Of a DNA stretch of 60,339 nucleotides, positions 2,183-27,936 are shown piece by piece. The translations under genes and the position numbers were made by a program. Where the stretch lies: assembly GCF_030382115.1 (NCBI RefSeq), contig NZ_JAUDRJ010000003.1:6561867-6622205 (forward strand), read 5' to 3'. Under the pieces are notes generated by a model. It saw only the letters and a program-made list of their open reading frames with translations. It had not been told where the DNA came from and did no database searches. Source of the DNA: Nostoc sp. GT001 (GTDB lineage: Bacteria > Cyanobacteriota > Cyanobacteriia > Cyanobacteriales > Nostocaceae). Each line of letters starts with the position of its first letter. The stretch's first letter is position 1.

Positions 2183-3208
2183 ATGAATTCCGACCTGATG
2201 CCGTTGCCTGAATCTTCCAATTCTTCTGCCTCTAACCAGGGCCCAACTAACGTAGAGGCAGCCGCTAATGTTCATATAGCAGCCCAGTCCTCTAAACAAG
2301 TTGACAATTTGCCTGTCAACACCAGCGAGACTGACTCAAATGGGAACTTGATTAATCGCCAGCAACCGATTCCGCCTCCCAGTGAACCGATGCAGTATCG
2401 AGCGATCGGCTTAGTCCGGGGTCGCTATCATGCTAGCAGCGAACAATTTACTCAAGGTACGTTGCTGACTCCAGATGGTGTAGAACTCAATGCCGTCCTC
2501 CTAGGCCGGATTATGAGCTTAGTCAAGAATCATCTAGACTTAGAAAAAGAACACTTGTGGGTAGTATATCCACGTACTAGACAAGAAAATGATACCTTGC
2601 ACATCCAAATCGTCGGAGTTTGGGAACCAGAAAATCTGGCTAAAAACTCAACAGATGAGGACGAATCGGATTTGGAGTTGCAAGAGTTAGAGACACTCGA
2701 TGATGGCTTATCCGAAAACTCTGAACTAAATACAACTGCCCTGAAACCTTCATCAGAAGTTGCAGATGGTGGTTTTTCTGTTCGTGGTGAAGTAGTATAC
2801 CAATCTTTTGATGCTAAAAGCTTGGTAGTCAAAATTAGACAGGCTCCACGCAAATCAACTGACAAACCCAAATATTTTAAGTTGAAATTGAGGGGTGTGC
2901 TAACCACCAAAGCAGTGGGAAAATTTTGGGACTTCCAAGCCAAGCGGGAAGCAGACGTTTTGATAGTAGAAAAAGCCGAGGCGATCGCTGATTTGCCCAA
3001 AAAACGCAAACCACCATTTAAAGGTGGGCCTCGTGCTGGTATTGGTGGTGCTGGTGGTAGAAAACCATTCCCCCCCAGACGCACTGGCGAAACCCCTCGT
3101 CCCATCAAGAAAACAAGTACAGGCGGCGACCCTTCAGTGGTGTCAAAACCTATACCAAGAACACCCACTCCTAAACCCATCAAGCGACCGAAACCGACTC
3201 AAGAGTAG
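2183..3208 (+). CDS. Conserved cyanobacterial protein with basic Pro/Gly-rich tail
   Basis: I place the start at the ATG at 2183 because AAGGAG lies 5 nt upstream; an in-frame upstream codon at 2084 has no such signal. The 341-residue product has a Ser/Asn/Pro-rich N-terminus and a conserved-looking block at about residues 65-155 (RAIGLVRGRYHASSEQFTQG onward). An acidic stretch (DEDESDLELQELETLDDG) follows, then a second folded block ending near residue 275. The strongly basic tail is rich in K, R, P and G (KKRKPPFKGG, KPIKRPKPTQ). Tails of this kind often bind nucleic acid or are disordered. I do not recognise a named family and assign no function. Confidence 0.75.
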   Translation: MNSDLMPLPESSNSSASNQGPTNVEAAANVHIAAQSSKQVDNLPVNTSETDSNGNLINRQQPIPPPSEPMQYRAIGLVRGRYHASSEQFTQGTLLTPDGVELNAVLLGRIMSLVKNHLDLEKEHLWVVYPRTRQENDTLHIQIVGVWEPENLAKNSTDEDESDLELQELETLDDGLSENSELNTTALKPSSEVADGGFSVRGEVVYQSFDAKSLVVKIRQAPRKSTDKPKYFKLKLRGVLTTKAVGKFWDFQAKREADVLIVEKAEAIADLPKKRKPPFKGGPRAGIGGAGGRKPFPPRRTGETPRPIKKTSTGGDPSVVSKPIPRTPTPKPIKRPKPTQE

Positions 3209-25323: not shown

Positions 25324-26397
25324 TTATGAGCTTGGTTGCTGATCGGGAAACATACACTTATCAGAATCACAACCACTAGGGCCAGCCTCTGTCATTTCGC
25401 CTAAATCGTAGCGGCTTAGTACTGCACAGAAATCATCTGTTTTGCGCCGCGCTTTCACTTCTTGAGTTAAGCGATCGTAGGTTGATTTATCTATTGGTTC
25501 AAATGGCAAACGGGGGAATGATTGCAAATCGTCAAAACGGGCTAAAAGAGCCGCTGAAATATATCCTTCATCATTCTGGATGGTCTCGTAAATGCGCTGT
25601 CCCAAAGGCTCGATTTCATCAGAGCGCAGTTCCAAAGTAGCTGATGTGTTGTGAGTCACGTACCAACGTTGAACCTGGAGGACAAAATCAAATTGGGCTA
25701 AGACTGAAAACTTAGAAACATCAATTTCATCAGCCCCTGGTAAATCAGCCCAAGTTACAGAAACAGGGATTTCCACTAGCCATTCACTCACCCGTGGATC
25801 AAAGGGATCGTTAAGCAAATTGCCGTGTTCATCTTTGTCTGATTGAGAAGGAATGACGTTGTAGCCATAGTCAATACAAGCTAAAGCTACTGGATCATTT
25901 TTACCAAAGGTGATCCGACGAATGAATCTTTGGGCTTTGGGAGGATGCCATCCTGAACTAGCATTAGTTAACAAAGCCTTAGTACCACTGGGTTGGACTG
26001 TGGTGCAACGATTTGGACGCTTGAGATTGTGGCGATCGCAATAATCCCAAACCGCCCGATGTACAATATCTCTCCAAGAACTTAGATATTTCTCTTCCTC
26101 ACGCTTGAAAGCTAATCCTTGGGGAGTTGCTGGTCTTCCTGCTTCCCACCAGCGCAGCCAATCAACACCAAAAGCATGGACAAAGAAATCAAATAAACCT
26201 GTAAAAGAAACTCCTACAATTGGGTCTAATTCACGGCTGTATTGATAGCGTGGTTCCAGGAATTTGTGATTTAAAAGTGCTGCTACAGATAGCGCCCCAG
26301 CGGTGAAAGCCTCCTCTTGTTCTTTGTAGTTATGTGGGTCGATTTGATTAAGGTGAACCTCTGACAAATTGCAGTGAAAATTAGAACCGATGATTTC
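25324..26397 (-). CDS. nrdJ: Class II (B12-dependent) ribonucleotide reductase, exon 2
   Basis: This second exon continues the gene from the catalytic Glu codon GAA at 26397 (EIIGSNFHCNLSEVHLNQID) to the stop at 25324, 357 residues. FHCNL holds the disulfide-forming Cys (C419 in Lactobacillus leichmannii RTPR). Near the C-terminus GCDSDKC supplies the C-x4-C pair that re-reduces the active site. The exon has no start codon or ribosome site of its own at the boundary. Joined to exon 1 across the 312-nt intron, it gives a 766-residue monomeric RTPR-type enzyme that makes dNTPs or dNDPs with adenosylcobalamin, close to the 739 residues of the L. leichmannii enzyme. Confidence 0.9.
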   Translation of the reverse strand, partial: EIIGSNFHCNLSEVHLNQIDPHNYKEQEEAFTAGALSVAALLNHKFLEPRYQYSRELDPIVGVSFTGLFDFFVHAFGVDWLRWWEAGRPATPQGLAFKREEEKYLSSWRDIVHRAVWDYCDRHNLKRPNRCTTVQPSGTKALLTNASSGWHPPKAQRFIRRITFGKNDPVALACIDYGYNVIPSQSDKDEHGNLLNDPFDPRVSEWLVEIPVSVTWADLPGADEIDVSKFSVLAQFDFVLQVQRWYVTHNTSATLELRSDEIEPLGQRIYETIQNDEGYISAALLARFDDLQSFPRLPFEPIDKSTYDRLTQEVKARRKTDDFCAVLSRYDLGEMTEAGPSGCDSDKCMFPDQQPSS

Positions 26398-26709
26398 CAG
26401 ATTTGTTACCCTAGAGGCTTTTTATCCCCTAGTTCTACTGCTTGATTATTTGCAGTAGCTCCGCGTACCTTTTACAGATGTGATATCAGATAATAAAAGT
26501 GTTTCGGCTCCGCTCAACACAAGTGTTTTTCACATCCGCCCCCGCACTCTTGGAGAGATTATATTCTAGACACAAATTTCTAATGTTATCTAGTTTCACT
26601 CTCTACGCTGTACGGTGTCAAAGACTTTTTACTTCCTTTGATTACCACGGGATTAGCATCTCAGCTTTCCCCGTTTTTGCGAGGTTTTTAACGTGAGGCA
26701 AAATCACTT
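26398..26709 (-). ncRNA. Group I intron in nrdJ (312 nt, no ORF)
   Basis: Removing 26398-26709 joins GGT to GAA and restores NPCG-EIIG in frame. The 5' exon ends in U and the intron in G, as group I splicing needs. P1: the last eight exon bases CGTGTGGT pair with intron 11-18 GCCTCACG, with a U-G pair at the splice site and one U-U mismatch. Core candidates are ACGGG (36-40)/CCCGT (59-63) for P4-P5, GAGAG (107-111)/CTCTC (153-157) for P7, and CTAGA (117-121)/TCTAG (140-144) for P8. P9 hairpins are CTACTGC/GCAGTAG (252-258/269-275) and CTAGGGG/CCTCTAG (278-284/293-299). The R-like and S-like strands fit. P3 is not convincingly placed. No homing endonuclease is encoded. Confidence 0.88.
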
Positions 26710-27936
26710 ACCACACGGATTTAGTCCATAGCGAGCTAAACGATGTTCTAACTCATTAGCATCAAGATTTGAATAACGTTCTTCTAACCACTGTTTTGCT
26801 GTTCCTTGTTCGTAAGCTTGTAAAAATTCAACTTTCAGAGCTTGTGTTGGTAGCAAATCTATGTTTGATCGCGCTACAGCTTCACCAGCCCATTGAATCG
26901 CTCCCTCGCCACTATAATATTGTTTGCGGACAGCACCAACACATTCTTCTAAGGTTGGCTTACGGTGAAAAACTCTCGTATGATTTGCCATCCTGAGTGC
27001 ATCACGCTCTGGATCGATTCGCCAGTTGCCATTTTCATCTTGCTGCCATAAGTTATCTTTGGCGGTGGCTGCTAAGTCATCGCCAGAATCAAACTGACGC
27101 ATCCCCGCGCTCCTACGTATATTCCCTGCAACAATTGTTACCGCTGCTTGATCGATTAACAGACAGCATTCAACTGAATTTAATTGTCGTCCTACAGCTT
27201 TACTCAGGATAGAAGCACAACGCTGATAGAGTCCGGGCAATTTCACAGGATTAGCAACTCCTCCAAAGCCGTTGAGAGTTTCTCCTGCTTTTCGGACATC
27301 GCTGATATCAACTAATACTTCGACTGCTGCTGAAAACTGTTCATTAGTAGAAAGTTCTAATAGGGCTTGATATGATTCAACCCAACCTTCACGGCTATCT
27401 CCAACATGAATAGTGACGTTATTGCCTTCTATATGAGTTTCTGTATATTCACGCCGCTTTTGAACAGGAGTGCTGCCAATTTCGCCTTGGACAGTCACAT
27501 TCAGTTGATTGCGAATTGGAGGCAACTGGTTAATAAATTGTGGTTCTAGGACGGCTCCAGTGCCACAGCCCATCATTGCTAGATCCATCATTAAGCCGAA
27601 GGCACTCCAGTCTTCGAGATTAGTAGAAGTGCAATTATAAGCCCCGGAAAAGTTCTTTGGCTTGGTGATCCAATCTGTACCACCAACCCATAACCAGCGT
27701 CCACTGGGCATAGCTTTCAAGTTGCGCTGCATCTTATCCAGTGTGGCAGCTTCTTCTTGAGTTAGCTTTCCCAACTCCACTAAGCCGAGTATAGTGCGAT
27801 CGCATACCTCATCCCATGTTTCCCTTAGTCCCGCCTTTGATCGGCGGCTATAAGTTCTAAAAAATACGGGATTAGCAGCAGGTGCAGTTTCTGGAAACCT
27901 TGCACTCTGGCGTGTTCTTTCGAGATTCTGAACCAT
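26710..27936 (-). CDS. nrdJ: Class II (B12-dependent) ribonucleotide reductase, exon 1
   Basis: Exon 1 encodes 409 residues from ATG 27936 to NPCG. Landmarks are the N-terminal SGRWLWVGGTDW (about 76-87) and YNCTSTNLEDWSAFG (about 99-113, with the first redox Cys, equivalent to C119). MMGCGTGAVLEPQFI and GNIRRSAGMRQFDSGD follow, and at the end the NPC of the radical site (Asn and Cys of N-x-C-x-E). Without splicing, translation runs one codon into the intron and stops at TGA (26704-26706), leaving a dead protein lacking the catalytic Glu. The upstream 400 bp show no B12 riboswitch that I can recognise. Confidence 0.9.

Follow-up and report, generated by a model that had tools for sequence, protein, structure and literature searches.

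A 312-nt stretch of DNA interrupts the only nrdJ gene of a Nostoc-like cyanobacterium, and it is nearly certain to be a group I intron that is spliced as a first-pass annotation had proposed. The window analyzed is a 60,339-nt stretch from Nostoc sp. GT001, and all of the features described below lie on its minus strand. The borders of the insert, its helices including a P3/P7 pseudoknot, selection on silent exon sites and the need for removal are shown by comparison with related genes and inserts, and we infer that the RNA is self-splicing, with guanosine as cofactor.

Exon 1 of nrdJ (26710..27936, 409 codons) ends in AAT CCG TGT GGT (NPCG), and exon 2 (25324..26397, 357 codons plus stop) starts with GAA ATC ATC GGT (EIIG). 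The intron between them (26398..26709) has an in-frame TGA as its second codon and a G at 26398 as its last base. Both exons are open, and both match TIGR02505 RTPR above the cut-off. From residue 404 onward, the joined NrdJ aligns with residue 404 onward of the Lactobacillus leichmannii RTPR (1L1L), with NPCGE on NPCGE. In RTPR numbering the insert thus follows G409, between C408 and E410, which bears out the placement between radical Cys and catalytic Glu that had been claimed from the letters alone; the next Cys of the query, C418, aligns with C419 of 1L1L. The alignment to intron-less nrdJ genes of relatives that had been suggested as a check was run. Since relatives with an empty site read NPCGE uninterrupted, the junction is fixed, and the exact borders of the 312-nt intron, 26709-26398, are those claimed. 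As had also been stated, the window copy holds no homing endonuclease gene: the largest ORF that lies entirely within the insert on the sense strand has 37 aa, and a 65-aa ORF on the opposite strand has no Pfam match.

The secondary structure was drawn by hand from the window copy and mapped onto 30 aligned same-site introns, which were hand-picked for diversity from the 59 inserts of 520 nt or less among the 63 distinct inserts found. Of 2247 cells across the 30 introns, 95.5% are paired; the figure is 79.0 ± 0.5 in shuffles, none of 500 of which reaches so high a value, and 36-45% when the structure is slid, a control in which its derivation from a single sequence works in its favor. Changes on both sides are seen in 45 of the 77 pairs, and these compensatory changes are independent of that bias. 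Folding was called for in the first-pass annotation, and the RNA of the window insert folds better than its shuffles (z -3.14, 0 of 100).

In P1, the exon side CGUGUGGU (26710..26717) pairs with the internal guide GCCUCACG on the intron side (26692..26699), and 7 of the 8 pairs are standard. One of them is the U.G at the 5' splice site, which is found in 30/30 introns. The guide pairing and its splice-site U-G had been proposed before and hold, but the U-U mismatch at the fifth position, invariant in 30/30 aligned introns, had gone unmentioned. P10 pairs GUGAUUUU on the intron side (26700..26707) with GAAAUCAU of the 3' exon (26397-26390), and its sixth position is unpaired in 9 of 46 alleles; covariation in P10, which was expected to be decisive, rests on few changes in the tree and is not.

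The core helices P3 to P9, part of which had been named in the earlier reading, are present in the window copy and supported across the 30 introns. P3 joins CCUCGCA (26678..26684) to UGCGGGG (26540..26546), with 100% of cells pairing and both-side changes in 6 of 7 pairs; in the same-site intron of locus L071, it reads CCGGGGA/UCUCCGG instead. P4 and P5 occupy 26647..26674 (P4 26674-26670 with 26651-26647, P5 26666-26664 with 26657-26655), P4 being 100% paired with compensatory changes in 4 of 5 pairs, and are followed by P6 and P6a at 26614..26646 (P6 26646-26644 with 26616-26614, P6a 26641-26636 with 26623-26618). P7 joins C(A)GCGUA, with a bulged A (26604..26610), to UACGCG (26462..26467), and is 100% paired with both-side changes in 3 of 6 pairs. 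Its G-C pair beside the bulge, which we take to be the putative guanosine site, is the same in 30/30 introns, and the P3/P7 pseudoknot pairs in all 30. Between P7 and P3 lie the extra stems P7.1 and P7.2 at 26553..26603 (P7.1 26603-26599 with 26557-26553, P7.2 26593-26589 with 26570-26566), a region (helices 10-12) in which 95.7-100% of cells pair, with compensatory changes. Stems in this position presumably mark subgroup IA, and the intron is probably of this subgroup, a type also present in phages. P8 (26477..26536; 26536-26530 with 26483-26477) pairs less well in its upper part (72.7%, few cells), and P9 and P9.1 complete the 3' part at 26411..26458 (P9 26458-26452 with 26441-26435, P9.1 26432-26426 with 26417-26411). 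The P8 loop contains a repeat-like stretch of 27 nt (26499..26525) that is partly absent from 288-nt relatives, has two copies with 3 mismatches elsewhere in the genome, and gives short matches in some other genomes.

The Rfam group I covariance search, which had been proposed as a check, returned nothing for the window copy at the gathering cut-off or at E<=10, and no group I match at eight same-site loci (L005, L018, L023, L024, L026-L029). A full-length RF00028 match is obtained with the same-site intron of L071 (30.7 bits, E 3.5e-4), and that of L080 also matches (24.1 bits, E 0.035), both below the cut-off of 50; no RF00028 match is listed at E<=1 for L113. The best Rfam line in the window insert, SAM_alpha (20.3 bits against a cut-off of 36, E 0.037), overlaps P1 and was rejected, and with this sole weak line set aside the Rfam search found no riboswitch family in the insert. 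A custom model, R1, was built from the introns of 12 relatives, close ones included and the window excluded, and returns exactly 26398-26709 in the window at 282.5 bits. R1 matched 31 of 339 genomes of the phylum, and five R1 loci (L143-L147) are group I above the Rfam cut-off, three of which (L143, L146 and L147) match part of R1 only.

The exon codons that pair with the guide are frozen. CCGTGTGGT is found in 46/46 intron alleles versus 6/24 empty alleles of the nrdJ locus set, 8 of these 24 empties holding an intein-like insert eight codons downstream of the intron site. The guide-paired codons CCG TGT GGT (Pro, Cys, Gly) are kept in every intron allele (46/46), with a third-base entropy of zero, against 1.95, 0.95 and 1.33 bits, respectively, in the 24 empties. 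The preceding Asn codon and the following codons vary in intron and empty alleles alike, and upstream codons -12 and -14, invariant in intron alleles, are nearly invariant in empties too. In an exon-1 tree made by a quick method from the 70 rows with both traits, P1 codons excluded, the P1 codons follow the intron in 9.2 on average of 12 independent intron-differing pairs and oppose it in 0 (median p 0.0039); the Asn codon, as a control in the same test, gives a median p of 1. Co-conversion during homing could also carry P1 codons along with the intron; however, it should reach the neighboring codons too, and those vary. The comparison shows selection on the silent exon sites that are predicted to pair with the guide.

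The 81 nrdJ rows compared are the best 80 of 582 confirmed relatives plus the window, and are therefore biased to close relatives. By motif, 46 have an insert between NPCG and E and 24 do not, a count that leaves out 11 rows (9 lack the 5' motif and carry their insert around C408, and 2 lack the 3' motif); by alignment, 46 rows carry the intron and 17 are empty, while two groups of 9 have, respectively, an intein-like insert ahead of C418 and an insert around C408. Of 59 genomes, counting that of the window, 33 gave intron matches, or 29 when 4 genomes with short repeat matches alone are removed. Across the order, 131 of 243 genomes yielded nrdJ, in some of which it is uninterrupted at the site. 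The same-site intron is common in Nostocales. The introns at this site in further Nostocales and in certain other filamentous cyanobacteria (for example, L038, L056, L071, L080 and L113) share the junction, guide, core and 3' end with that of the window, and differ from it in the P7.1 to P8 loops.

The rarity implied by the first-pass annotation does not fit these counts (29/59 genomes, 46/81 rows), and the kind of intron has already been published for Nostoc punctiforme. Going by its title, a 2007 paper by Meng, Zhang & Liu (J Bacteriol 189:2150) reportedly describes an insertion sequence element inside the RIR intron of N. punctiforme PCC 73102; the window intron has no such element. The kind is thus known since 2007, and the window intron is a further case. 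The two share genus and gene function, each being a group I intron of a chromosomal ribonucleotide reductase (RIR) gene, and are likened here by gene, not by insertion site, following the passages on the N. punctiforme RIR intron in PMC1995217 and PMC12702839, which cite Meng et al. 2007. Cyanobacterial ribonucleotide reductase introns are also listed in PMC3984707, and PMC2795772 reports that entries for ribonucleotide reductases contain more than 100 curated group I introns.

Other inserts occur in the same gene. An intein-like in-frame insert before the Cys aligned with RTPR C419 is seen in L039, L041, L048, L054, L055, L058, L064, L066, L109, L111 and L117, its intein-like nature having been judged by eye in L039, L111 and L117. 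L111 and L117 hold both elements, the intein-like insert lying eight codons past the intron site. In L005, a group II intron end (2513-2652, minus strand; RF00029, 49.7 bits, cut-off 40) is located upstream of the group I intron, near the point where the exon-1 match of the L005 nrdJ breaks off. In several genomes of the order, the best nrdJ match begins no earlier than about residue 273-274 and has a long open frame, an indication that the gene may have another insertion site farther upstream.

The statement that there is no endonuclease to explain the spread of the intron is true of the window copy and not of its lineage, as endonuclease-like genes, of two types, are present in four relatives with the intron at the same site. 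The introns of L063, L072 and L076 have an ORF with NUMOD3 above the cut-off and Phage_endo_I below it, and these ORFs match endonuclease I chains at E 0.03, more weakly for L076. The L075 intron has a GIY-YIG ORF (E 2.3e-10). By eye, the ORFs are positioned in P8 in L063, L072 and L076, and in the P7.1/P7.2 region in L075. In the endonuclease gene and the first 170 nt of the intron, L063 shares 89-94% identity with L072 and L076, against just 78-79% in exon 1; L062 is closer to L063 by exon 1 (87.5%), yet its intron is only 77% alike in the first 170 nt. As the likeness of intron and endonuclease exceeds that of the exons, the L063 intron appears to have been transferred horizontally. By parsimony, the intron state has to change 18 times on the 81-row tree, and 16 of these changes are forced by starred branches. 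The intron lineage is one that, judging from these genes and trees, has spread by homing, and the window copy lacks the endonuclease gene.

The window P8 loop may be a relic of the 3' end of an endonuclease gene. Its peptide resembles the ORF ends of L063, L072 and L076 (p 0.002-0.009), as do the P8-loop peptides of L038 and L052 (p 0.0007-0.003) and L060 (p 0.015-0.027), the likeness being weaker in L022 (p 0.10-0.22) and L019 (p 0.07-0.11). The shared loop could instead predate the endonuclease, because the ORFs of L063, L072 and L076 extend through the 3' portion of the ribozyme as well. By eye, L084 appears to have a clearer remnant.

All 46 inserts contain an in-frame stop by codon 7, 39 of them at codon 2, and because of these stops the intron must be removed; the length is not divisible by 3 in 22/46, and the terminal G is found in 46/46. 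A TIGR02505 search of the window's genome returned the two halves of nrdJ only, and PF02867, PF13597 and PF00268 gave no matches there, PF02867 being a weak test that misses nrdJ itself. Thus nrdJ appears to be the sole ribonucleotide reductase of the organism and, since no other was found in the genome, splicing is probably essential. In the proposed reaction, the guide would pair with the last codons of exon 1 to form P1, the core would bind guanosine in P7, and cleavage would follow the final U of exon 1. The intron's terminal G would be bound next and the exons joined, with P10 holding the 3' exon, restoring NPCG-EIIG.

It is conceivable, though improbable, that the intron is kept as a switch, its splicing coupling dNTP production either to guanosine or to translation through the 5' splice site. 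The intron does interrupt the only ribonucleotide reductase found, and the codon-2 stop of 39/46 alleles is compatible with ribosome stalling that helps splicing, as discussed for other introns in PMC3984707. However, the insert holds no recognized riboswitch family, 10 of 35 same-genus genomes gave no intron match (some of these assemblies are fragmented), and the 18 changes on the tree are those of a selfish element rather than of a switch. It is still harder to credit that the window carries a group I intron so decayed that it has lost splicing, leaving nrdJ a pseudogene. Such decay would agree with the failure of Rfam to recognize this copy and with the repeat-like insertion in its P8 loop, but the core helices are preserved, neither exon has lost its open frame or its above-cut-off match to RTPR, and the guide-paired silent sites are kept; moreover, nrdJ must work, as the genome offers no other ribonucleotide reductase. 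There is next to no chance that the insert is instead a group II intron, an intein or some other element. Relatives do have a group II end and intein-like inserts in nrdJ, and Rfam calls no group I intron in the window, but an intein is ruled out by the in-frame stop at codon 2, group II is represented by a single line in the insert (13.1 bits, E 4.8), and the P3/P7 pseudoknot, terminal G and splice-site U.G are group I features.

The group I intron of nrdJ has relatives outside this gene. Full-length R1 matches occur in the phage records MT835539 (L148, E 2.4e-49) and Staphylococcus phage 6ec (L149, E 1.7e-28), the latter flanked by the genes for an HNH endonuclease and the tape measure protein, and blastn against phages gave partial matches. 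The two stretches are like R1 over their whole length, and may well be group I introns; they are not annotated as introns, and Rfam does not list them at E<=1. There may also be a resemblance to the T4 td intron. In cyanobacteria, R1 matches over its whole length inserts in rtcB, which encodes the RNA ligase RtcB (L137-L142, E 2.3e-17 to 4.8e-12). These are R1-like, as is the nrdJ intron, and likewise sit at a conserved motif, following GSLGGG and preceding NHFIE; the 5' exon is seen in 6/6 and the NHFIE of the 3' exon in L137, L138, L139 and L142. PF01139 was tested on the L142 exons, and LAGLIDADG_3 ORFs are present in the inserts of L140 and L141. Inspection of L138 and L142 by eye suggests a GGGGU/GCCCC P1 and a terminal G. 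Among the matches listed, titles and the starts of abstracts indicate no published rtcB group I intron, which is weak evidence of absence. That cyanobacteria harbor a phage-type branch specialized on catalytic-residue codons (nrdJ between NPCG and E, rtcB between GGG and NHFIE), with nrdJ splicing as a rate-setting control of dNTP supply, seems to us improbable.

The rtcB inserts may add to the list of host genes. In relatives, intein-like inserts fall within codons 408-418 of the loop that the intron interrupts, at about C408 and ahead of the residue aligned with C419, so that this loop lends itself well to comparisons of self-splicing elements. The freezing of the guide-paired silent codons is clean evolutionary evidence that pairing in P1 is important in vivo. 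As the insert splits the apparently sole reductase of the organism between two catalytic residues, DNA synthesis in this cyanobacterium probably depends on a ribozyme.
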